Assembly (NCBI GenBank): GCA_030651765.1
Contig: JAUSBY010000011.1
Location: 186,001 to 250,000 of the forward strand
Reading direction: 5' to 3'
Length of the DNA stretch: 64,000 bases
Source: Coriobacteriia bacterium
GTDB lineage: Bacteria > Actinomycetota > Coriobacteriia > Anaerosomatales > Anaerosomataceae
The stretch's first letter is position 1, and every line of letters begins with the position of its first letter. A program made the translations under genes and the position numbers. The notes beneath the pieces were generated by a model, which worked only from the letters and a program-made list of their open reading frames with translations, searched no databases and had not been told where the DNA came from. Shown here piece after piece: positions 49,179-60,040 of this stretch.

Positions 49179-49919
49179 GTGCCGACGATCCTGCCCATGG
49201 CGATCATCACGATCGTCGCCTCGGCGCTCCTGTGGGGCGCGTTCCTCTACGCCTACTCCGGTCGCACCTGGCGCTTCGTCCGGCTCATGGTGTGGGGCCT
49301 GCCGCTCTCGGCGGTGGTGAACCTGTTCGTGAAGTCACCGGTCGGGCAGGGCGTGGGCGCGCTCGCCGGCATCGATCCCGGTCAGGGGCTCGATACCCCG
49401 GTGTGGTTCCTCGTGTTCCTGTTCCTGCTCGCACCGGTCTTCGAGGAGCTCATCAAGGTCGCCCCCGCGCTCCTGCCGTCGGTGCGTCCGCACGCGACCA
49501 CGCCGGACGACGCGCTGTGGACGGGCCTGGCGCTCGGCATGGGGTTCGGTATCGGGGAGGCGGCGTATCTCGGCTGGCAGATCGCGCTTTCGAGCGCCTA
49601 CGAGCAGTACGCCTGGTACATGTTCTCGGGCTTTCTCGGCGAGCGTCTGGTCGTGGTGCTGCTCCACGGGTTCATGACCGCGCTGCTCATGTGGTTCGCC
49701 GCGCGCGGGCGTCCGGTCATCGGTTATCTGGCCGCCGTGGGTGCGCACGCGCTGCTCAACTCGGGCGCGATGCTCTTCCAGCTCGGTTTGGTCGCCGAGG
49801 GAGTCGCGGGGCTGTCGCTCCTGGTCGTGCTCGTGGTCGCGGTCATCGTCTTCGAACGCATCCGGCCTCGCTATCGCCGAGACGAAAGCGACGTCGTCTA
49901 CTACTCGGCGGACGACTGA
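49179..49919 (+). CDS. PrsW family intramembrane protease-like protein
   Basis: The 246 residues with eight or so helices. The conserved motifs are present: FEELIKV (E89/E90), GEAAYLGWQ, HGFMTALLM and AHALLNSG, which form the presumed metal site. In Bacillus PrsW cleaves an anti-sigma factor; no such partner is seen here. GTG start two bases after the previous stop. Confidence 0.88.
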   Translation: MPTILPMAIITIVASALLWGAFLYAYSGRTWRFVRLMVWGLPLSAVVNLFVKSPVGQGVGALAGIDPGQGLDTPVWFLVFLFLLAPVFEELIKVAPALLPSVRPHATTPDDALWTGLALGMGFGIGEAAYLGWQIALSSAYEQYAWYMFSGFLGERLVVVLLHGFMTALLMWFAARGRPVIGYLAAVGAHALLNSGAMLFQLGLVAEGVAGLSLLVVLVVAVIVFERIRPRYRRDESDVVYYSADD

Positions 49920-49980
49920 CGCCGCGCGTGTGCCCACAGTGCCGTCGCGGTACCATCGCATCCGAGAGGAGGTGGCGCCG

Positions 49981-51567
49981 GTGGGTGACAGGACGATTCG
50001 CGTGCGGTTCGAGCCTGGTGGGCTTGATGCCGATGTCGCACCCGGCACCACGCTGCTCGATGCGGCTCACGCCGCCGGTGCGAGTATCGACGCGCCGTGC
50101 GGTGGTGTGGGCCGATGCGGGGCGTGCCGGGTGCGCGTGAGCGGCGAGGTCTCGGCGCTCACCCCCGAGGAGGCCGACATCCTGGGCGGCGCGAGTGTGG
50201 CCGCCGGCAGGCGGCTCGCGTGCCGCGCCCGCGCGATCGGCGACGCGGTCGTCACGCTCGGTCGCGTGCGGGGCCAGGCGAAGGTCGTCATCGGCTCCGG
50301 GCGCGCAGAGTCCGAGGGCACAGGGCCGGAGGCGTCGGGAGACGTCGGCGCGGCGGTCGATATCGGTACGACCACCATCGCCGTGGCGATAGTCGATATG
50401 GCAACCGGGGACGTTGTCGCCAGCCGGGGCGCCTTGAACGCGCAGGACGCATTCGGCGCCGACGTGATGAGCCGGGTGACCGCGGCGCTCGATGGAGCCA
50501 CCGCGGAACTGCGCGCGACGGTCCTCGAACAGGTCGGGGATCTCGTGGCCGAAGCGCTCGACGAGAGCGGGTCCTCGGCCGATGACCTCATCGAGCTGGC
50601 CATCTGCGGCAACACCGCGATGACCGGCATCTTCCTCGGGCGGGACATCTCACCGCTTGCCGCGGCACCGTATGAGGGTGCCGACATCTCCGGGGCGGCC
50701 GGGACCGCCCGCGCGCTCGGCCTGCCCGGCTTCGACCGGGCGGAGGCGTACGTGCTTCCGGGCATCTCGGCCTTCGTCGGTGCCGACATCACCGCCGGGC
50801 TGCTCGTCACGCGCCTGGACGAGCGCACCGCCCCGACGCTCTTCGTCGACCTGGGCACCAACGGAGAGATCGTGCTCGCCGGAGCCGGGCGTATGCGGGC
50901 CACGTCCACCGCGGCCGGACCTGCGCTCGAGGGCGCGGCCATCGAGTGCGGCATGCTTGCCGAGACAGGTGCGATCGAGCGCGTCAGGCTCGAAGGAGAC
51001 GCCCTCTCACTCGATGTCATCGGAGACGTGGCGCCGGCCGGGATTTGCGGGAGCGGCGTGCTCGATCTTGTGGCTGCGCTGCTGGACGCGGGCGTCCTCG
51101 ATGCGAGCGGACGGCTGCTCGAGGTGCCGGGTCCGCTCGGCGCGCGCGTGGCCGAGCGCGACGGTCAGCGCGTTTTCGAGTTGGACCCCGGGCGCGACGT
51201 GGTCCTCACCCAGAAGGACGTGCGCCAGGTCCAGCTCGCCGTCGCGGCGGTGCGCACCGGGATCGAGCTGCTGCTCGCCGATGCCGGGGTGCGCGTGTCC
51301 GATATCGGTGAGGTCATCGTCGCCGGCGGCTTCGGGTTCCACATCGATGCTGCATCGGTCACGCGCATCGGGCTCCTGCCTGCCGAGTGGCGGGATCGCA
51401 TCACCTTCGCCGGCAACACCGCACTCGCCGGCGCACACCTCACGCTCGGCGATGATGCCTGGCGCAGGCGGGCGACCACGCTGGCGGGTCGCGTCCTCGC
51501 GATCGATCTTGCCGCACACCCGGAGTTCCAGGACCGCTTCATCGCAGCGCTCGGGTTTCCGGAGTGA
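49981..51567 (+). CDS. RACo-like corrinoid-protein activator
   Basis: The 528 residues begin with a plant-type [2Fe-2S] ferredoxin domain (C40, C46, C49, C81), then the linker and an ASKHA domain (VGAAVDIGTTTIAVAIVD, FVDLGTNGEIVLA, GICGSGVLDLVAALLDAG). This is the architecture of the reductive activators of corrinoid-dependent methyltransferases (acetogenesis, O-demethylation). GTG with GAGGAGG 8 bases upstream. The corrinoid protein is not in the window. Confidence 0.93.
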   Translation: MGDRTIRVRFEPGGLDADVAPGTTLLDAAHAAGASIDAPCGGVGRCGACRVRVSGEVSALTPEEADILGGASVAAGRRLACRARAIGDAVVTLGRVRGQAKVVIGSGRAESEGTGPEASGDVGAAVDIGTTTIAVAIVDMATGDVVASRGALNAQDAFGADVMSRVTAALDGATAELRATVLEQVGDLVAEALDESGSSADDLIELAICGNTAMTGIFLGRDISPLAAAPYEGADISGAAGTARALGLPGFDRAEAYVLPGISAFVGADITAGLLVTRLDERTAPTLFVDLGTNGEIVLAGAGRMRATSTAAGPALEGAAIECGMLAETGAIERVRLEGDALSLDVIGDVAPAGICGSGVLDLVAALLDAGVLDASGRLLEVPGPLGARVAERDGQRVFELDPGRDVVLTQKDVRQVQLAVAAVRTGIELLLADAGVRVSDIGEVIVAGGFGFHIDAASVTRIGLLPAEWRDRITFAGNTALAGAHLTLGDDAWRRRATTLAGRVLAIDLAAHPEFQDRFIAALGFPE

Positions 51568-51642: not shown

Positions 51643-51671
51643 TTGCATCTGCGTGCCTGAAGGCATAAACT
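51643..51671 (+). promoter_or_regulatory. Promoter of the arsR-permease-selenoprotein run
   Basis: TTGCAT and TAAACT, 17 bases apart, 34 bases before arsR. The -10 element overlaps the operator, as for a repressor-controlled promoter. Confidence 0.5.
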
Positions 51672-51689
51672 TCGAAACTCATCGAAGTT
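51668..51689. promoter_or_regulatory. ArsR-type operator 1
   Basis: Perfect inverted repeat AACTTCGA-N6-TCGAAGTT, 15 bases upstream of arsR. Its core TTCGA-N6-TCGAA recurs at 52071. Confidence 0.75.
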
Positions 51690-51704
51690 GACATGTGAGG
51701 ACAC

Positions 51705-52028
51705 ATGACCACCGCTACGCGACCCGCACTCACCGAGGCACAGCTGGACGCAGCGCTCAAGGCGCTGGCTTCAGCGCAGCGGCGTGAGATCCTGCGCATC
51801 CTCGCCGCGAGTACCGACGTACCGGGCAAGACCTGCTGCGCCCAGGATGAGATGTGCGGATGCACGCTCGCCGAGCGGCTCGGGCTTGCGGCATCGACCA
51901 TCTCTCACCATATGTCGGTCTTGCGCGCCGCCGGACTGATCACCTCCCGCAAGGACGGAACCTGGGTGTATTACACGGCCCGCACGGACGTACTCTCCTC
52001 AGTCGCGGAAGCGGTGCAGGTGCTCTAG
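51705..52028 (+). CDS. ArsR/SmtB family metal(loid) regulator
   Basis: The 107 residues: winged helix with LAERLGLAASTISHHMSVLRAAGLI. The cluster CCAQDEMCGC (C44, C45, C51, C53) sits in or just before the recognition region and is the likely thiol sensor site for As(III), Hg, Cd or similar. Two matching operators flank the gene. First gene of a run extending to the selenoprotein at 55804. Confidence 0.93.
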   Translation: MTTATRPALTEAQLDAALKALASAQRREILRILAASTDVPGKTCCAQDEMCGCTLAERLGLAASTISHHMSVLRAAGLITSRKDGTWVYYTARTDVLSSVAEAVQVL

Positions 52029-52070
52029 ACACCCCGGCGAGTCATGCACGGGCGATTTACGGTCGAGTGA

Positions 52071-52086
52071 TTCGACGAATATCGAA
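52071..52086. promoter_or_regulatory. ArsR-type operator 2
   Basis: TTCGA-N6-TCGAA, the same core and spacing as operator 1, in the 87 bases between arsR and the thioredoxin-like gene. A TTTACG (52056) and TATCGA (52080) 18 bases apart could be a second promoter under the site. Confidence 0.6.
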
Positions 52087-52115
52087 ATGAAGTACATGAC
52101 AGAAGGGTGGACGAC

Positions 52116-52349
52116 ATGGTCGTCAAGATCCTGGGGCCGGGGTGCATGAACTGCCAGAAGCTGGAGGCGCTCGCACGGAAGGCCGTCGATGAGCTCGGTT
52201 TGGACGCCGAGATCGTCAAGGTGGACGATTACGCCGACATCATGGCCTACGGCATCATGTCGACGCCCGCTCTCGTGGTGGACGAACAGGTGAAGATCGC
52301 CGGCTTCGTGCCATCGCTCGATCAGGTCAAAGCCGCGCTCCGGGCATAG
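52116..52349 (+). CDS. Small thioredoxin-like (glutaredoxin-type) protein
   Basis: The 77 residues of the TM0996/MTH895-type: VKILGPGCMNCQKLE, active-site C10 and C13, and TPALVVDEQVKIAGF with the cis-Pro. These proteins often accompany DUF318/ArsP permeases. ATG 52116 with AAGGGTGG upstream. Cytoplasmic thiol reductant or metal(loid) carrier for the permease encoded next. Confidence 0.92.
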   Translation: MVVKILGPGCMNCQKLEALARKAVDELGLDAEIVKVDDYADIMAYGIMSTPALVVDEQVKIAGFVPSLDQVKAALRA

Positions 52350-52366
52350 CCGGAAGGGACAGTCAC

Positions 52367-53383
52367 GTGAGCGGTGTAGTCGCATTCTTCGGCTGGCTCA
52401 ACGACGCACTGCTCAAGATGACGTGGCTGAACGACCTCGTAGGCCAGCTGGTCGAGAAGGTCTTCGGGCTGCCGCTCGACGGCCGCGCTGGGGCAAGCGT
52501 GCAGTTCTTCATCTACGACACCATCAAGATCTTCGTGCTGCTCTCCACGCTCATCTTCGTGATCTCGTACGTGCAGAGCTTCTTCCCACCGGAGCGCACC
52601 CGGAGGATCCTCGGCCGGTTCTCTGGTGTGTGGGCCAACGTGCTCGGCGCGCTCCTTGGTACCATCACGCCGTTCTGTTCGTGCTCTTCGATACCGCTCT
52701 TCATCGGCTTCACGTCGGCAGGTCTGCCCATCGGCGTGACGTTCTCGTTCCTGATCTCCTCGCCGTTGGTGGACCTTGCCTCGGTCATCCTGCTCGCGAG
52801 CATCTTCAACTGGAAGATCGCCATCGCGTACGTGGTGGTCGGCCTGATCCTCGCTGTCATCGGTGGAACGCTGATCAGTGCGCTCAAGCTCGAGCGCTTC
52901 GTCGAGCCGTTCGTGTACGGAACGCACATGGCCGAGGCCGACATGCCAGAACTCACGAGGCGCGATCGACTGTCGTTCGCCTGGCGCGCGGTCCTCGATA
53001 TCGTGAAGAAGGTGTGGCCGTACGTGCTCGCAGGCGTGGGAATCGGGGCCGTGATTCATGGATGGATCCCCGAGTCGTTCATCTCCGCGATCCTCGGTGA
53101 CCGCAATCCGTTCTCGGTGGTGCTCGCCACGATCGTCGGTGTGCCGATGTACGCGGACATCTTCGGGACACTGCCCATCGCCGAGGCCCTCGTGACCAAG
53201 GGCGTGGGGATCGGAACGGTGTTGGCGTTCATGATGGCGGTGACCGCGCTCTCGCTGCCGTCACTGATCATGCTCAAGAAGGTCGTGAAGACGCCGCTAC
53301 TCGCGACGTTCTTCGGAATCGTCGTAACGGGCATCCTCGTCATCGGCTACACGTTCAACGCGTTCAGCGGCCTGCTCCTGTAG
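52367..53383 (+). CDS. ArsP/DUF318-type permease
   Basis: A protein of 338 residues with eight or so helices in two inverted halves. TPFCSCSSIPLFIGF (C104, C106) is the family signature, and VPMYADIFGTLPIAEAL is the matching part of the second half. ArsP members export trivalent organoarsenicals; which substrate applies here is inference. GTG start (52367), 17 bases after the thioredoxin-like gene. Confidence 0.92.
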   Translation: MSGVVAFFGWLNDALLKMTWLNDLVGQLVEKVFGLPLDGRAGASVQFFIYDTIKIFVLLSTLIFVISYVQSFFPPERTRRILGRFSGVWANVLGALLGTITPFCSCSSIPLFIGFTSAGLPIGVTFSFLISSPLVDLASVILLASIFNWKIAIAYVVVGLILAVIGGTLISALKLERFVEPFVYGTHMAEADMPELTRRDRLSFAWRAVLDIVKKVWPYVLAGVGIGAVIHGWIPESFISAILGDRNPFSVVLATIVGVPMYADIFGTLPIAEALVTKGVGIGTVLAFMMAVTALSLPSLIMLKKVVKTPLLATFFGIVVTGILVIGYTFNAFSGLLL

Positions 53384-53416
53384 GCACGCCTCACCCCAGA
53401 CGAAGGAGGGCGCTTC

Positions 53417-53497
53417 ATGGATAGTCCGAACATCCCGGAGGGCTCCACTACCTCCGCAGTGCTCGTTGCCCTCGTGCCGCCGAAAGCCGAGGACTAG
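53417..53497 (+). CDS. Small peptide (26 aa)
   Basis: ATG 53417 preceded by AAGGAGG at 9 bases, one of the stronger ribosome sites here. Peptide sequence begins MDSPNIPEGSTTSAVL and ends PPKAED; there is no Cys. Its stop is one base before the ATG of the next permease, so it may couple translation or be a small partner of the permeases. Confidence 0.55.
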   Translation: MDSPNIPEGSTTSAVLVALVPPKAED

Positions 53498-53498
53498 G

Positions 53499-53987
53499 AT
53501 GCTCGAGCGCTACATCGGCTACGCCTACCTGGTTCTGGCAGCGATCGGGTTCGCGTACACGTACGCGAAGAGCCATGACAAGGCCCGCAAGGCAGCGCAA
53601 GGAGGCCTGAAGGCGCTCCGCGGTGTCGCGCTCACCTTCGCGGGGGTGTTCGGGCTTGTCGGACTTCTCGACATCTTCGTGCCGCCGGCGTTCATCGAGC
53701 GCGTGCTGGGATCTCAGGGCGGGTTCATGTCATTGCTCGCAGGAAGCGCGCTGGGCTCGGTCGCCGCGGGGCCGCCCGTGGCTGCTTATCCGATCGCGGC
53801 CTCGCTGCTCAAGAGCGGCGCCTGGGCGCCTGCGGTTGCGGCATTCATCGTATCGTGGACACTGGTCGGCTTCGTCTCGCTTCCGTTCGAGGCACGCACA
53901 TTCGGCCCGAGGTTCGCCCTCGCGCGCAACGGGCTTTCCTTTGTCTTCGCGATGATCATCGGACTCTTGATGGGGTGGGTCTTGTGA
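53499..53987 (+). CDS. Half-size permease, N-terminal half-like
   Basis: The 162 residues with four or five helices. GGFMSLLAGSALGSVAAGPPVAAYPIAASLLKSG resembles the repeat half of the DUF318/ArsP permeases, without the CSCSS motif. ATG is one base after the small peptide's stop. It overlaps the second half-size gene (GTGA). Confidence 0.8.
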   Translation: MLERYIGYAYLVLAAIGFAYTYAKSHDKARKAAQGGLKALRGVALTFAGVFGLVGLLDIFVPPAFIERVLGSQGGFMSLLAGSALGSVAAGPPVAAYPIAASLLKSGAWAPAVAAFIVSWTLVGFVSLPFEARTFGPRFALARNGLSFVFAMIIGLLMGWVL

Positions 53988-54535
53988 AGCGGCTGCTGGA
54001 GTGGATGAGAGACGAGTTGCTGTTCGTGCTCGCGGTGGCGCTGTACGTGTGGGCGTTCGCCGTCGCACCGGACAAGGCGCTTCAGGCTCTTGCTGTCGGC
54101 GGGCGGACATTCCTCGGCATCCTGCCGATCATTGCGGCGGTGTTCGCGGCGCTGGGGCTCTTCAACGTGTGGGTCGACAAGAAGAAGATCGCAGCCGTGC
54201 TCGGCAAGGGTGGCGGCATAAGGGCGGTCGCGATCGCGAGTCTGGCCGGAACCATCCTCGTCGGCCCTGTGTACGTGATCTTCCCGCTCCTGAAAGCGGT
54301 ACGCGAGCACGGCGCCAGATGGGCCGTCATCGGTGCGGTACTTGCCGCATGGGCGGTCAAGGTACCCATGGTGCCGATGGAGATCGGCATGCTGGGCCTG
54401 CGCTTCTCCGTTGCGCGCATCGCGCTGGTCGCACTTGCTGCAATCCCGATCGGCTATCTGCTGGAATGGGTGATGGGCATCCGTCGCCCGGTTGCTGCAA
54501 TCGAATCTGACGAGAGGATCGTGATCGATGAGTGA
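53984..54535 (+). CDS. Half-size permease, C-terminal half-like
   Basis: The 183 residues with about five helices. GTILVGPVYVIFPLLKAVREHGARWAVIGAVL parallels the GPPVAAYPI region of the preceding gene, so the two proteins probably assemble as a heterodimer equal to one full permease. GTG start inside the upstream stop. Ends in an acidic tail. Confidence 0.8.
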   Translation: MKRLLEWMRDELLFVLAVALYVWAFAVAPDKALQALAVGGRTFLGILPIIAAVFAALGLFNVWVDKKKIAAVLGKGGGIRAVAIASLAGTILVGPVYVIFPLLKAVREHGARWAVIGAVLAAWAVKVPMVPMEIGMLGLRFSVARIALVALAAIPIGYLLEWVMGIRRPVAAIESDERIVIDE

Positions 54536-55073
54536 GAAGGCGCAACCCGCGCGGACGGCAACGAAGGGGCAGCAACCCTCGGATGACCTCGTAGCGACCG
54601 GGCGCTCGAAGAGCCCGATCGTACTCCTGATCGTCGCCATCTTCCTGGGCTTCATCGTGATGAAGCTGGTGCTCGACAGCGCCGCGCCAGCCGTGTCGCC
54701 CGCTGATACGGGTTCTCCGGCCGGCACGACCATCACCTCGGTCCGCAACGACGCGGTGGCCGACTTCGATGCGGCCGTCGCATCGGGAAGGCCGATATAT
54801 GTGCTCTTCCACTCGCTCACGTGTGTTCCGTGCGTCGAGATATCGGAAGTCGCTGATGTCGTGATGCCTGAGTACGAGGGTGAAGTGGTATTCGTCAACG
54901 CGATCACTGACGATCCGTCCGGGCAGCAGCTGGCTGCGAACTTCGCGTTCCAGTACATCCCGACATCGTTCTTCCTCTCGCCCGGCGGTGCCGAGGTGGT
55001 TGACTCGTTCACCGGGGCGATGGACGAGCCGCAGATGCGCGCCTACCTGGACGCACTGGTGCAGGCCCGGTGA
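54528..55073 (+). CDS. Membrane-anchored thioredoxin-family protein
   Basis: The 181 residues: cytoplasmic tail, one membrane segment (about 30-49), then an extracytoplasmic thioredoxin domain with LFHSLTCVPCVEISEV (C99, C102) and IPTSFFLSPGG with cis-Pro. Probably re-reduced by the CcdA encoded next. ATG overlaps the permease stop by 8 bases. Confidence 0.9.
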   Translation: MSEKAQPARTATKGQQPSDDLVATGRSKSPIVLLIVAIFLGFIVMKLVLDSAAPAVSPADTGSPAGTTITSVRNDAVADFDAAVASGRPIYVLFHSLTCVPCVEISEVADVVMPEYEGEVVFVNAITDDPSGQQLAANFAFQYIPTSFFLSPGGAEVVDSFTGAMDEPQMRAYLDALVQAR

Positions 55074-55786
55074 ACATCGAGAGCCTGGCATCCGGTCTGA
55101 CTTCAGGGAACGTTGGCGGTATCGCGGCGTTCGGCGTCGCCTTCCTGGGCGGTCTCGTGGCGGGGTTCGGCCCGTGCATCCTGCCGATGTTGCCTGCGGT
55201 CTTCGGCTATGTCACCGGCATGGTCACTCGCGACGCCTCGGCCGAGGAGCCTCGCGCACTACTCGTTCGGGCGTTGGGGCTCTCGATGGTCTTCGTGCTC
55301 GGCATGAGCGTCGTGTTCGCGGCCATCGGCGCGGTTGCAGGATTCCTCGGGCGCGCACTCATGTTCGGCGCGTGGGCGTACTACGTGATCGCGGCGATCT
55401 GTGTGGTCATCGCGCTGCAGATGCTGGAGCTGATCGATCTTCCGGTGGACAGACTCAACGCCTTGTTGCCGATGAAGCGACCTGAGCGGCGCGGCGTCAT
55501 CGGTGCCTTCATATTCGGGATGCTGTTCGGCCTCGTCGCGTCCCCGTGCTCGACGCCGATCCTGGCGGCCATCGCGGCGATTGCCGCGACGACCGGCAGC
55601 GCCGCCAAGGGCGGTGCACTCCTGTTCGTGTACGGACTCGGCAAGGGCGTACCCCTGTTGCTGCTCGGTCTCGCCTCGGGCTCACTCGGTCTGATGCGAA
55701 AGGTGTCGCGCGTGACGCCTGTGCTCACCAAGATCGGCGGCATCGGTCTGCTGGGCGCGGCTGCGTATCTCATCTATCTTGCATGA
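55070..55786 (+). CDS. ccdA: CcdA-type thiol-electron transporter
   Basis: The 238 residues with six helices and the two repeats: VAGFGPCILPMLPAVF (C36) and LVASPCSTPILAAI (about C162), the membrane thiols that move electrons from cytoplasmic thioredoxin to the outside. GTGA overlap with the thioredoxin gene. Its place here suggests thiol supply for metal(loid) handling rather than cytochrome assembly. Confidence 0.92.
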   Translation: MNIESLASGLTSGNVGGIAAFGVAFLGGLVAGFGPCILPMLPAVFGYVTGMVTRDASAEEPRALLVRALGLSMVFVLGMSVVFAAIGAVAGFLGRALMFGAWAYYVIAAICVVIALQMLELIDLPVDRLNALLPMKRPERRGVIGAFIFGMLFGLVASPCSTPILAAIAAIAATTGSAAKGGALLFVYGLGKGVPLLLLGLASGSLGLMRKVSRVTPVLTKIGGIGLLGAAAYLIYLA

Positions 55787-55803
55787 TGTTCAAAGGAGGA
55801 TGT

Positions 55804-56160
55804 ATGGAAGAGATCGTCATCCAGGTCGTGCCGGAACCCGCCTGTGGTTGAGGCGGCGGCACCGACTGCTGCGACACGCCTGAGTCGCTGCCCGGTGAGA
55901 TCACCGAGGGAGCGACTTGAGAGATGCCGCTGCAGTGGCGCCTCCACGTGCTGGAGGTACAGTTGAAAGAGCGGATCGGCAGACCGGTACGCGTCGTTCA
56001 GAGGAGTCTGTACCATCTCGCGGGCACTGAGCGCACCGCCGCTGTCGACGTTCTCGTGAGTGGAGCCGAGTTGCCGTTGGTGCTCGTGGGCGATCGAGTC
56101 GCGTGCACGGGTTCGCTGGACCCGGACGCCGTCAGCGCGGCCATTCGCGAACTCGGGTAG
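55804..56160 (+). CDS. Candidate thioredoxin-like selenoprotein, two in-frame UGA codons
   Basis: ATG with AAAGGAGG 4 bases upstream. The frame reads 15 residues, then TGA (55849-55851) in VPEPACG-U-GGGTDCC, then TGA (55918-55920), then open to TAG at 56160, for 118 residues. The N-terminal EEIVIQVV, a helix with VLEVQLKERIG, PVRVVQ and PLVLVGDRVACTG follow thioredoxin-fold order, so the whole frame looks like one protein with Sec 16 and perhaps Sec 39. Alternatively the second TGA ends a 38-residue selenopeptide and ATG 55924 (GAGGGAG upstream) starts a separate 78-residue protein. Hairpins follow both UGAs. Confidence 0.68.
55858..55892 (+). promoter_or_regulatory. Possible bacterial SECIS hairpin for the first UGA
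   Basis: GGCACCGACT pairs with AGTCGCTGCC (9 of 10 pairs, one C-C mismatch); the loop begins with G. The stem starts 7 bases and the loop about 16 bases after the UGA, within the known range for bacterial SECIS elements. Confidence 0.55.
55941..55957 (+). promoter_or_regulatory. Possible bacterial SECIS hairpin for the second UGA
   Basis: CCTCCA-CGTGC-TGGAGG, a perfect 6-bp stem with GU in the loop; the loop lies about 27 bases after the UGA at 55918. Short palindromes are common in GC-rich DNA, so this is weaker than the cluster context. Confidence 0.4.
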
Positions 56161-56164
56161 CTGC

Positions 56165-56968
56165 TCAGCCGGTTCTAAGCGCCTCGGCGAGCGTCGGCGG
56201 CAGGCCGGCGGCTACGACCGCCTCTGCCACCCGCTCGATGTCGTAAGCGACTCGATGCACGACCACGCCGAGCCAGACTCGCTCGCCGCCCGGTGCGCCG
56301 GCGGGTCCTGCGGCGTGATCGTCAGGGCACGCGGCGTTCACCTCGGCCTTGCTGCCGAAGACGAGTTCGACCCATCCCGCGCGCGGGTCGCCGTCCTTGG
56401 GCTTGCCGACCGAGCCGCTGCTCACGTAGTGGACCGCGCGGCCGTCCTCGGCCGTGAGCACCCGGTGATAAGGGATGTGGATGTGGCCAACGCACACGAC
56501 GTCGGCCACCGCCTGGTCGGCGAGTCTCGCCAGCTGGGCGTCCTTCCGGTCGAGCAGCAGGTACTCGTTGATCTTGCGTGGGCTGCCATGTGCCAGCAGG
56601 ATGCGGGCTCCCTCGTGCACGAGCCGGAACTCCGTCGGCAGCGTTGCGAGCCACTCGTGGTCGGCATCGTCGAGCGCCTCGTCGGTGAACGCATACGAGG
56701 CCGCGCCGTCTGACTTCGCCTGCTCTGTGGCGTAGTAGCAGCCGCAATCGCCGCGCCGGGTGCCGATGCCCTCGTCGTAGTTGCCGCGGATCGTCGGTAT
56801 GCCGAGGGTGCGGATGCGCTCCACGACGCCGGACGGATCCGGCCCGTAGCCCACCAGATCGCCGAGGCAGTAGGTCTCCTCGATCTCCGCCGACGCGATG
56901 TCTGCGAGGACCTCCTCGAGGGCAAGGGAGTTCGCGTGGATGTCCGAGAAGAGCGCGATGCGCCTCAT
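56165..56968 (-). CDS. Metallophosphoesterase, YfcE/DUF-type
   Basis: The 267 residues have the calcineurin-like motifs ALFSDIHANSLAL (D-x-H), YCLGDLVGYGPDP (GD), TIRGNYDE (GN with D in place of H), LLAHGSP and CVGHIHIPY (GH-x-H). ATG 56968 overlaps the acr3 stop; GTG 56975 is also possible. Third gene of the arsR-acr3 operon; its link to arsenic is not obvious. Confidence 0.88.
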   Translation of the reverse strand: MRRIALFSDIHANSLALEEVLADIASAEIEETYCLGDLVGYGPDPSGVVERIRTLGIPTIRGNYDEGIGTRRGDCGCYYATEQAKSDGAASYAFTDEALDDADHEWLATLPTEFRLVHEGARILLAHGSPRKINEYLLLDRKDAQLARLADQAVADVVCVGHIHIPYHRVLTAEDGRAVHYVSSGSVGKPKDGDPRAGWVELVFGSKAEVNAACPDDHAAGPAGAPGGERVWLGVVVHRVAYDIERVAEAVVAAGLPPTLAEALRTG

Positions 56969-58107
56969 GAGTCGCACGCCTCACCTTCCACGAGAGACGA
57001 GACCAAGGCGACCGGCTCCACACACACGGACCCCTCGCCCGAGCGCTCCATGTAGCGCGTGCGGGTGCGGTTGGCTATCCACACGAGCGAGAGCATCACC
57101 GGAACCTCGACGAGCACGCCGACGACGGTCGCGAGCGCCGCGGCTGACTTGAGGCCGAAGAGCGCGATCGCCACAGCTACAGCAAGCTCGAAGAAGTTCG
57201 AGGCGCCGATGAAGCCTGCGGGCGCACCGATCCGGTGCGGGATCCTCCAGCGCCACGACCATCCGTAGGCGATCGCGAAGATGAGGAACGTCTGGATCGT
57301 GAGCGGGATCGCGATGAGGAGGATGTGGAGCGGATTGTCCACGATGATCTCACCCTGGAAGATGAAGATGATCACGAGTGTGACGAGCAGGGCGATGATC
57401 GTGACGGGGCCGAATCGCGGCAGGAAGTCGCGCTCGAACCAGGCCAGGCCCCTGGCCGCGATCAGACGGGTGCGCACGAGCCACCCGGCAGCGAGCGGCA
57501 CGACCACGAAGAGCACGACGGAGAGCGCCATCGTGTCCCACGGCACCGGAATGCCACCCACGCCGAGCAGGAACGACACGATCGGAACGAACGCCACGAG
57601 CATGATCAGATCGTTCAAGGCGACCTGGACGAGCGTGTAGGCGGGATCCCCGTCGGCCAGATATGACCATACGAACACCATCGCCGTGCACGGCGCGGCG
57701 CCCAGGAGCACGGCACCAGCAAGGTACTGCTGCGCCAGCTCGGGCGTGATCTGATTCTTGAAGATGACGTTGAAGAACAGCCAGGCGATGCCGAACATGG
57801 TGAACGGCTTGATGAGCCAGTTGACCACGGTCGTGACGATCAGTCCGTTCTTGCGCTCGCCGACGCGCCTGATCGATGCGAAGTCGATCTGCAGCATCAT
57901 CGGGAAGATCATGAGCCAGATCAGGATGGCCACCGGCATCGAGATCTCGGCGTAGGTGAAACGCGAGAGTCCGTCGGCTACGCCCGGCCAGGCATTCCCG
58001 ATGAACGTGCCGGCGGCGATGCAGAGCGCCACCCAGAGCGTGAGGTAGCGCTCGAAGAAGCTCATGCGCTTCTTCTCGGCGGGTGCTGCGGGTGCGGTTC
58101 CGCTCAT
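56965..58107 (-). CDS. acr3: Acr3 family arsenite efflux permease
   Basis: Exports As(OH)3 from the cell. The 380 residues with ten helices; the family signature LLGAAPCTAMVFVWS with the essential Cys at 140, and FIGASNFFELAVAVAIALFG near the end. It follows arsR with an ATGA overlap. Confidence 0.96.
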   Translation of the reverse strand: MSGTAPAAPAEKKRMSFFERYLTLWVALCIAAGTFIGNAWPGVADGLSRFTYAEISMPVAILIWLMIFPMMLQIDFASIRRVGERKNGLIVTTVVNWLIKPFTMFGIAWLFFNVIFKNQITPELAQQYLAGAVLLGAAPCTAMVFVWSYLADGDPAYTLVQVALNDLIMLVAFVPIVSFLLGVGGIPVPWDTMALSVVLFVVVPLAAGWLVRTRLIAARGLAWFERDFLPRFGPVTIIALLVTLVIIFIFQGEIIVDNPLHILLIAIPLTIQTFLIFAIAYGWSWRWRIPHRIGAPAGFIGASNFFELAVAVAIALFGLKSAAALATVVGVLVEVPVMLSLVWIANRTRTRYMERSGEGSVCVEPVALVSSLVEGEACDS

Positions 58108-58415
58108 CGGTCGTCTCCTTGTCCCGGGTCACATATTGCCGCGTCGGAGGCGATCCCGCCTAAGGCGTTCAGGAACTCCTCGAGCACGGGCTTGCTCAGG
58201 CAGTACACCATCGAGGTGCCGACCGCGTGCGCGCTGATGACACCGGCGGACTTCAGAACGCGCAGGTGTTGCGAGATGGTCGACTGCGCGAGCGGCAGTC
58301 CGGCGAACACGTCGTGACCGCGGCATTCGCTCTGCGCTGCCAGCAGTCGGACGATACGTACACGCGCGGGGTGGGCGAGTGCCTTGGCTATCCCGGCCAG
58401 CTGTTCGTCGGTCAC
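58104..58415 (-). CDS. ArsR family arsenic regulator
   Basis: The 103 residues: winged helix with AQSTISQHLRVLKSAGVIS. Cysteines 31, 72 and 95 may form the As(III) site. GTG 58415 was chosen because GGAGG lies 4 bases upstream; the frame continues to 58454 without a ribosome site. Heads the acr3 operon, divergent from yedE. Confidence 0.92.
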   Translation of the reverse strand: MTDEQLAGIAKALAHPARVRIVRLLAAQSECRGHDVFAGLPLAQSTISQHLRVLKSAGVISAHAVGTSMVYCLSKPVLEEFLNALGGIASDAAICDPGQGDDR

Positions 58416-58424
58416 GGAGCCTCC

Positions 58425-58446
58425 TTCATCGTCAATCGTAGATGAA
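58425..58446. promoter_or_regulatory. Operator upstream of arsR-acr3
   Basis: TTCATC-N10-GATGAA, 9 bases upstream of the arsR start, with ATCGT direct repeats inside. It differs from the TTCGA-N6-TCGAA site of the other ArsR. Confidence 0.45.
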
Positions 58447-58567
58447 CGATACACAGGGAGGAGGCCTTACACAAGTAGCGTAGAGCAGAGGACCCGCTCT
58501 TGACACAGACCGATGCTTATAGCAATCATCGGCAGGGGTTATGCCGCGTCCGAGAAAGGGGAGTTCT

Positions 58568-59809
58568 ATGACCAAGCGTCGTGTGATCGGCCCTACCGCC
58601 TGGATACTCGGCGGAGCGGGCCTGTTCATCGGGGCGGTCGCCGCGTGGCTGGTGAGTCAGGGGAATCCGGGCAACATGGGCCTGTGTATCGCGTGCTTCC
58701 TGCGCGACATCATGGGCTTCTTCGTGGGCGGATCGACCAACCAGGCCGCCGTCGCCTACATCCGGCCCGAGATCATCGGCATCATTTTGGGCGCGATGGG
58801 CGCCGCACTTGTCACGCGCGAGTTCCGCCCGCGCGGCGGAAGCCAGCCGATCGTCAGGTTCGTGCTCGGGTTCATCTTCATGGCCGGCGCGCTCATCTTC
58901 CTCGGGTGTACCGTGCGCGCGTGGCTGCGCCTCGGTGGCGGCGACCTGTCGGCGCTGTGGGGGGTGGCCGGAATCGTCGCCGGCGTGATCGTCGGCATCG
59001 TATTCCTGAAGCGTGGCTTCAACATGGGGCGGGCGAAGAACCTGGCCAAGCCACTCGGCTGGTTGCTTCCCGCCGTCGGCGTGGCGATGCTCGCCTTCCT
59101 GCTCCTCTCGACGTACGGCGCCAAGCCCGACTGGGCCACCGTCACTCCGGCCAACGGCAAGGCGGTCGTGCCGGGTGAGGTCGTCGTCACGACTGACGGC
59201 ACCGTGATCAAGCCCACGGACGCCGCGCTCGTGGACGGCGCCGTGGTGGCCGCCGACGGGACGGTGCTGGCCGACGCCGAGAAGGTGGCCGCGACCAAGC
59301 CGATGCCTGGCGGTAAGCGGGCGCCGTTGTGGATCTCGCTTGTCGCCGGCCTTGCCATCGGCGTCGTGGCGCAGCGCAGCCGCTTCTGCTCGATCGGAGG
59401 CATCCGCGACGCGATTCTCGTCCGCCGATTCGACCTGCTCTTCGGCGTGGTAGGCCTGCTCATCGGTGCCACGGTCGTGAACATGATCTTCGGGCAGTAC
59501 AACCTCGGCTTCACCGGCCAGCCCGTGGCGCACAACGACGCGCTCGGCAGCTTCGCGGCGATGACGGTGGCCACCTTCGCGGCCATCCTGCTCGGCGGAT
59601 GCCCGTTCCGTCAGGTGATCATGGGCTCCGAAGGCGATGCCGACTCGTTCATGGCGGTTGCGGGCATGCTCGTGGGCGCGGGAGCCACGCACTTCTTCAA
59701 GCTCGCATCGTCCGCCGCCGGCCTTGCCGACATCGCGTGGCCGGCGCTCGGCGTGATGGCAGTCGTCCTCGTCGCGGTGGCCGTTCTCGGCTCCCGCACA
59801 ACCGCATAG
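58568..59809 (+). CDS. yedE: YedE-family (selenium-associated) transporter
   Basis: The 413 residues have about ten helices in two halves, each with a Cys motif: GLCIACFLRDIMGFF (C43, C46 region) and RSRFCSIGGIRDAIL, plus LLGGCPFRQVIMGSEGD. A soluble loop of about 80 residues (residues 200-265) lies between halves. The family (YeeE/YedE) takes up sulfur species; the YedE subgroup is tied to selenium use. ATG 58568 with GGGGAG upstream. Confidence 0.9.
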   Translation: MTKRRVIGPTAWILGGAGLFIGAVAAWLVSQGNPGNMGLCIACFLRDIMGFFVGGSTNQAAVAYIRPEIIGIILGAMGAALVTREFRPRGGSQPIVRFVLGFIFMAGALIFLGCTVRAWLRLGGGDLSALWGVAGIVAGVIVGIVFLKRGFNMGRAKNLAKPLGWLLPAVGVAMLAFLLLSTYGAKPDWATVTPANGKAVVPGEVVVTTDGTVIKPTDAALVDGAVVAADGTVLADAEKVAATKPMPGGKRAPLWISLVAGLAIGVVAQRSRFCSIGGIRDAILVRRFDLLFGVVGLLIGATVVNMIFGQYNLGFTGQPVAHNDALGSFAAMTVATFAAILLGGCPFRQVIMGSEGDADSFMAVAGMLVGAGATHFFKLASSAAGLADIAWPALGVMAVVLVAVAVLGSRTTA

Positions 59810-59830
59810 CGCGAGAGAAGGGAAGACCTC

Positions 59831-60040
59831 ATGACTGAACTCGACGTGCGCGGGCTGTCGTGTCCGATGCCGCTGATGCACACCAAGAAGGCACTCGAGA
59901 GCGACCCGGCCGAGATCGTGGTCCACGCCGACAGCGGGACCGCCAAGGCCAACGTCGCGGCGCTGCTGGCCGACGAAGGCTACACGGTCACGATCGAGGA
60001 GTCGGGCGAGGAGTACCGCATCAAGGGCGTTCGCGCGTGA
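59831..60040 (+). CDS. TusA/SirA-like sulfur (selenium) carrier
   Basis: The 69 residues: VRGLSCPMPLMHTKKAL with the carrier Cys at residue 11, ending EEYRIKGVRA. In yedE operons this protein, called YedF when fused, is thought to carry Se. AAGGGA upstream. GTGA overlap with the next gene. Confidence 0.93.
   Translation: MTELDVRGLSCPMPLMHTKKALESDPAEIVVHADSGTAKANVAALLADEGYTVTIEESGEEYRIKGVRA

Follow-up and report, generated by a model that had tools for sequence, protein, structure and literature searches.

ArsD (PF06953) is an arsenite chaperone whose known partner is ArsA; it has a thioredoxin fold and carries a cluster of cysteines after its first strand. These cysteines follow a CC-x4-C pattern, present in seven ArsD rows and presumably the arsenite site. 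A further type of ars operon contains a CcdA, a thioredoxin and an RDP2 gene, and the Castillo and Saier text that describes it makes no mention of selenoproteins (PMC2963123). Selenocysteine (Sec) proteins have been placed alongside metal(loid) transport in the SAO set (SaoB/C/E/L/P/T/X) of Haft and Gwadz 2023, as given in a 2026 review (PMC13188914), and the same review lists MbdU (NF045648), a two-Sec protein with presumed metal binding. In section 7 of that review, the selenoprotein inventory names no ArsD, DUF1462 or DUF2703 selenoprotein, and the use of Sec as a metal(loid) ligand is left as an open point. Here we describe an operon with an ArsR-type repressor gene in a 64,000-nucleotide stretch of a Coriobacteriia genome (the window, taken throughout at its full length), positions 51643-56160. 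Its last gene, named usp here, has two in-frame UGA codons and encodes a thioredoxin-fold protein, Usp, that may be related to ArsD.

The locus shares features with several of these systems, and differs from each of them. A preliminary description of the window had raised the possibility that the operon belongs to a selenoprotein-linked metal-transport set already described, which family scores do not support. Although the window permease falls in the broad family of SaoE, it scores 111 bits against a SaoE cut-off of 325, and no Sao model matches Usp; the CcdA scores 62 bits against a cut-off of 805 for TsoB of the TsoA/B/C set, and no Tso model matches Usp either. MbdU resembles Usp in having two Sec residues, but gives no match with the window protein at E<=10 and with none of 31 family members at E<=1. 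The CcdA–thioredoxin–RDP2 operons of PMC2963123 resemble the window in that the three redox genes stand among ars-type genes, whereas the window has no arsC among its scanned genes and has in addition an ArsP, half permeases and a two-Sec protein. Usp and ArsD share the thioredoxin fold (predicted for Usp), the cysteine cluster after strand 1, the ars operon setting and a DUF2703 fusion partner (for ArsD, as reported in PMC3091736), their relation running through a second family, Y, described below. In contrast to ArsD, Usp lacks the CC-x4-C pattern and has two Sec residues in the arrangement C-x-U-x5-CC; it has no Pfam match, and no ArsA was identified nearby. DUF1462/YuzD (PF07315, structure 1xg8) is the best fold match to Usp and includes family Y above its Pfam cut-off, but again Usp itself matches no Pfam model.

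On the evidence of codon conservation, 55804-56160 is one conserved gene with two in-frame UGA codons, in a genome that has Sec machinery. The preliminary description had correctly placed a candidate selenoprotein gene at this point of the run, but had ended it at the TGA at 55918; this is the second Sec codon, and the frame continues to 56160. Indeed, 55804-55920 and 55924-56160 share a single reading frame, read-through of both TGAs gives a product of 118 residues, and tblastn alignments of this product in relatives cross both codons. Codons were counted in 31 of 34 matches, which are related and hence not independent (three were dropped: L106, a C-terminal fragment at the end of a contig; L045, a broken match of 55 residues; and a 27-residue piece of L102). 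At site 1 the codon is TGA in all 31, with no Cys homologue inside the family; at site 2 it is TGA in 21, TGC or TGT in eight, TCC in one (L039) and TGG in one (L105), and never TAA or TAG. Usp thus has the conserved in-frame UGA and, at site 2, the Cys replacement in homologues that mark a selenoprotein. Ordinary stop usage does not explain the uniform TGA at site 1, because TGA terminates just 120 of 281 conserved open reading frames (ORFs) in the same loci. A genome-wide use of TGA as a sense codon was considered and ruled out on the same count, and the RACo, half permease B, TlpA and CcdA genes of the window also end in TGA. The ratio of nonsynonymous to synonymous substitution (dN/dS, by the NG86 method, against two relatives) is below one in both segments, being 0.042/0.128 and 0.063/0.289 between the two TGAs and 0.035/0.183 and 0.158/1.237 downstream of the second. 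The genome encodes SelB (372 bits, cut-off 242) and two tRNA-Sec genes with a TCA anticodon (G000:C8:63627-63719 and C13:12178-12270), one of which is close to the end of its contig and has a partial SelB match next to it. Selenium would be expected to be incorporated into Usp.

With a threshold of E<=0.001, the Usp profile matches 30 of the 69 genomes of the order, probably Anaerosomatales/OPB41; by construction these include the nine members from which it was built. A sample of 396 genomes of the phylum gave four members of the order and four marginal partial matches (E 0.002-0.009), one of which is a Y-type Sec protein; a scan of genome contigs gave two Usp loci, in the metagenome-assembled genomes UBA2272 and HGW-Actinobacteria-7, and plasmids and phages gave no match. 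The window protein has no Pfam match at E<=10 and is named by no NCBIfam model. When all 31 members were compared with NCBIfam, weak scattered matches were obtained; the strongest (E 0.0029) involves a model for tRNA selenouridine synthase, which six members touch. In ten genomes (L032, L033, L087, L090, L092, L094, L097, L098, L099 and L100) an ORF of a common cluster (cluster 8) is continuous in frame with Sec codon 1, and the two of these fusions that were tested both contain DUF2703 (97 bits, cut-off 23.6). DUF2703 is fused to Usp here and to ArsD elsewhere (fusions reported in PMC3091736), and Usp therefore occupies the place of ArsD in these fusions. Genes of the DUF2703-Usp type (L032, L033, L086, L090, L096, L100) tend to have Cys-rich tails, e.g. 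GCC, before a TGA that may be a stop. Some variants combine CSU-SG with a Cys in place of the second Sec (L041:10166-10573, L103:5800-6180, L104:5808-6173); they adjoin an OsmC-like gene (PF02566 in L041) and mostly lie away from the ars set. Literature searches on ArsD, DUF1462, YuzD or DUF2703 with selenoproteins, on double selenoproteins and on MbdU/Tso returned no description of the Usp family; relative to this literature, which leaves the texts of Haft and Gwadz 2023 and Haft and Tolstoy 2025 outside the comparison, the two-Sec family, its DUF2703 fusion, its operators and the sister family Y are new. Usp adds an unnamed two-Sec family to the short list of such selenoproteins, and its gene model puts right a UGA which automatic annotation will take as a stop.

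The AlphaFold2 model of Usp (mean predicted local distance difference test score, pLDDT, 82) shows a thioredoxin fold: a first strand and a loop of 33 residues are followed by helix, strand, helix, two strands and a final helix, and Pro91 precedes strand 3. The loop holds Cys14, Sec16, Cys22 and Cys23, with Sec39 near its end and ahead of helix 1. The best fold match is 1xg8 (Z 7.7, root-mean-square deviation (rmsd) 3.6, 93 residues aligned), followed by ArsD (3kgk/3mwh; Z 6.8, rmsd 3.5-3.6, 81 aligned), with SelW-like proteins below both (Z ~5.5); all of the Usp matches have Z below 8. A firmer connection to ArsD comes through family Y, a second Sec-type family that occurs once per genome in 62 of the 69 genomes of the order, with an in-frame TGA in 61 of the 62 matches, and in 25 of 396 genomes of the phylum sample. 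Against Pfam, Y scores 28.7 bits with DUF1462 (above the cut-off of 25) and 20.8 bits with ArsD (E 4.8e-4, under the cut-off of 27), whilst two members tested had no NCBIfam match. Profile comparison relates Usp to Y with a probability score of 95.2% (E 2.6e-8) and Y to ArsD with 96.5% (E 1e-9), where the E-values are those of single comparisons; control comparisons of Usp with Trx3, TlpA, ArsR, ArsP and CcdA gave 0.05-1.4%. In the Y-ArsD alignment the Sec of Y stands opposite the third Cys of the ArsD CC-x4-C-G-P. Structurally, Y matches 1xg8 with Z 9.4 (102 aligned, rmsd 3.3) and ArsD with Z 9.0 (86 aligned, rmsd 2.8), level with some thioredoxins. In genome G309 (L153:1982-7279) a divergent Y-type Sec protein (U) is flanked by arsA and an exporter-like ORF, within the order arsD-arsR-arsA-arsA-U-exporter, in which arsD was assigned by profile and the other genes by reading ORFs. 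At three loci (L207, L209, L210) Y lies directly 3' of a small ferredoxin-like gene.

A tentative reading of this relationship, to which we give slightly less than an even chance, is that Usp and Y form a selenium branch of the ArsD/YuzD group, being metalloid carriers in which Sec replaces an arsenite-binding Cys and, in Usp, a two-Sec loop has arisen. If this is true they would be Sec-based arsenic chaperones, with Sec serving as a metalloid ligand and not as a catalyst. The predicted ArsD-like fold would connect selenium with arsenic-type resistance, and Usp makes the question of Sec as a ligand testable in one small soluble protein.

The seven-gene plus-strand run (arsR, trx3, arsP, two half permeases, an anchored thioredoxin and ccdA) that the preliminary description placed ahead of the selenoprotein gene was found as it had been reported, and Pfam and NCBIfam scans bear out the expected family of each gene (Table 1), with half permease B below the Pfam cut-off. 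The spacing of at most about 90 bases that had been given is right for most of the run (-8 to 87 bases) and wrong for the gap between arsP and half permease A, which is 115 bases and contains a 26-codon ORF whose frame is also open, with substitutions, in the same-genus relative L031. Nor is the set complete at 56160, the end that had been given, since a divergent acr3 and a second arsR follow; given their overlap, these two are probably cotranscribed. The Cys motifs are largely kept in related loci: CC-x4-6-CxC in 19 of 22 ORFs of the ArsR cluster, CxxC in 22 of 22 for Trx3, and CSCS in 22 of 24 members of the ArsP cluster, the window permease having both the PF03773 gathering score and the CSCS motif that define ArsP. 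The half permeases are ~30% identical to each other, and half permease A was found in 15 of 61 genomes searched.

Searched to a distance of 5 kb, 33 Usp places show ArsR, Trx3 and ArsP at 21 each, TlpA at 20, a half permease at 18, ACR3 at 13 and CcdA at 12, counts obtained with hidden Markov models derived from these same loci, on some contigs that end early. Six control loci, around family Y and SelB/tRNA-Sec, have none of the ars-set genes, and the earlier proposal of a thiol/selenol metal(loid) system under ArsR is supported. From these counts the core partners of Usp are ArsR, Trx3 and ArsP, whilst the half permeases and CcdA are optional; the expectation that the selenoprotein always accompanies the latter finds no support. 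The operon also has two copies of the palindrome TTCGA-N6-TCGAA, one ahead of arsR and one between arsR and trx3. These are the only exact sites in the window (0.05 expected) and two of three in the whole genome. The 39 related loci, 458,544 bases in all, contain it 28 times, where five simulations gave 0 or 1 occurrences; for 24 of these sites an arsR, trx3 or arsP match is no more than 130 bases away. In seven loci with the fused gene (of which L086 is shortened) the palindrome is upstream of the Usp gene. As the palindromes stand before arsR and trx3 and recur at related operons, an ArsR regulon acting through TTCGA-N6-TCGAA is likely. The palindrome is also found near the 5' end of members of one ORF cluster (L040:9185, L045:8313, L093:4451), of which the L040 member is of the MFS type (PF07690, 171 bits), and this transporter ORF is a probable further member of the regulon. 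A scan for promoter and terminator consensus sequences found nothing exceeding chance. Sequence comparison thus shows the operon setting of usp and its operators. The operators, the second Sec, the DUF2703 fusion and the ArsD-type relationship were all absent from the preliminary description, which was to that extent incomplete.

Taken together, we propose with even confidence for and against that this is an ArsR-controlled operon which senses a soft trivalent metalloid, handles it by thiol-redox chemistry and exports it, and in which Usp is a two-Sec, ArsD-like carrier. The substrate would most likely be As(III) or methyl-As(III). From its anatomy, ArsR would leave the two operators once its thiol cluster binds the metalloid. 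The Cys/Sec loop of Usp would capture metalloid in the cytosol, in the manner of ArsD, and hand it over to ArsP, which has the CSCSS motif, or to ACR3 for export, whilst the ArsE-type thioredoxin Trx3 would keep the loop reduced. CcdA and the anchored thioredoxin may send electrons outward and so keep exported or exofacial thiol partners reduced; as a guess, half permeases A and B might pair into a heterodimer similar to a single full permease. Such a system suggests selenium chemistry as the means by which these bacteria hold toxic metalloids.

Several observations weigh against this proposal. The confident part of the Usp model leaves out the Sec loop (residues 15-38 have pLDDT below 50 and are disordered), and the Z of 6.8 for ArsD falls in the range of common arrangements. 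Direct homology of the Usp and ArsD sequences was considered and is unsupported: Pfam ArsD (PF06953) does not match Usp, a PDB profile search with Usp gave only chance-looking matches, and hhalign gave scores of 11% with the seven ArsD rows and 44% with a larger set (from which three of 19 ArsD loci were left out), so that the connection is solely through Y. ArsA was not identified among the scanned genes of the operon region, and the genome itself has no ArsD match at E<=0.1. At eight of the 33 Usp places, no more than one gene of the ars set is found within 5 kb. Hairpins resembling a Sec insertion sequence (SECIS) fold slightly better than control (mean z -0.56 at site 1 and -1.02 at site 2, against -0.15) and equally well in members with Cys at site 2 (-1.06); SECIS was accordingly dropped as proof of Sec, the folding signal not being Sec-specific.

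A somewhat unlikely alternative is that Usp is a selenol oxidoreductase, in which Sec16 or Sec39 would attack a metalloid in oxidised or thiolated form, such as arsenate or thioarsenate, or a permease disulfide, and a Trx3/TlpA/CcdA relay would recycle Usp. The predicted thioredoxin fold, the position of Sec39 just ahead of helix 1 (that of the thioredoxin active site) and the three further thiol-redox proteins of the operon all agree with this, as does the statement in section 7 of PMC13188914 that most prokaryotic Sec proteins are redox proteins; an arsenate-reductase role was, moreover, proposed by Castillo and Saier for CcdA–thioredoxin–RDP2 ars operons. However, seven of their eight operons (PMC2963123) have arsC, and no ArsC model was among the hits of the genes scanned at 49.7-60.0 kb. 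Two further points against it are the long disordered loop, with three Cys and two Sec rather than a CxxC-like motif, and the two members that carry Ser or Trp at site 2. It is unlikely that the same machinery serves another soft element, be it Hg(II)/organomercury or selenium in the form of selenide traffic: a YedE selenium transporter adjoins the operon (58541-59806; TIGR04112, 366 bits, cut-off 200) and the permease is, as given above, distantly SaoE-like, but YedE homologues (cluster c43) are confined to the window and L031 among 40 sequences clustered, and ACR3 lies near 13 of the 33 Usp places. The reading of 55804-56160 as two genes, one for a peptide of 38 residues with a single Sec and one for a protein of 78 residues from the ATG at 55924, one codon after the second TGA, is rejected as extremely improbable, given the continuous frame with a Cys codon at site 2 in eight members, the lack of any ATG, GTG or TTG in the nine codons after the second TGA in L041 and L032 (which have TGA at site 2), and a predicted fold whose first strand precedes the first TGA and whose remainder follows the second.

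Table 1. Positions of the usp operon, its operators and associated genes (cut-offs are those of the family models).
Feature	Position	Strand	Description
ArsR-type operator 1	51671-51686		TTCGA-N6-TCGAA, 18 bases ahead of arsR start
arsR	51705-52028	+	ArsR/SmtB repressor; Cys cluster TCC-x5-MCGC; NF033788 80 bits, cut-off 55
ArsR-type operator 2	52071-52086		TTCGA-N6-TCGAA between arsR and trx3, 29 bases ahead of trx3
trx3	52116-52349	+	MTH895/ArsE-family thioredoxin-like protein, CMNC; TIGR00412 101 bits, cut-off 62
arsP	52367-53383	+	Full ArsP-family permease, CSCSS motif; PF03773 221 bits, cut-off 32
26-codon ORF	53417-53497	+	Putative gene in the arsP / half permease A gap; purine-rich start region
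Half permease A	53499-53987	+	PF03773 37.3 bits (above cut-off) over N-terminal half; without CSCSS
Half permease B	53984-54535	+	PF03773 24.0 bits, under cut-off 32.3; without CSCSS
TlpA-like membrane-anchored thioredoxin	54528-55073	+	CVPC; PF00085 30.8 bits; N-terminal hydrophobic anchor read from sequence
ccdA	55070-55786	+	CcdA / DsbD transmembrane electron carrier; PF02683 109 bits
usp (name given here)	55804-56160	+	118-residue two-Sec protein, predicted thioredoxin fold; last gene of operon
Sec codon 1	55849-55851	+	TGA, residue 16, context C-G-U
Sec codon 2	55918-55920	+	TGA, residue 39; previously read as stop
acr3	56965-58107	-	Arsenite efflux transporter facing the operon; TIGR00832 382 bits, cut-off 282.8
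Second arsR	58104-58454	-	NF033788 72.8 bits, cut-off 55; overlaps acr3
Family Y gene of the same genome	G000:C7:188885-189217 (L154:1886-2218)		Outside the window; second Sec-type gene, GGGU-GPSW

Two further neighbours of the operon were noted. Beside the YedE gene (58541-60040 region) is a YedF-like TusA protein that scores 48.5 bits against a cut-off of 110; among the loci clustered, this neighbourhood is kept next to the operon in L031 only. Upstream of the operon lies a RACo-type corrinoid activator (49741-51567; PF14574, 239 bits), and RACo-like genes are also found near Usp in L031, L042, L085, L088 and L089.

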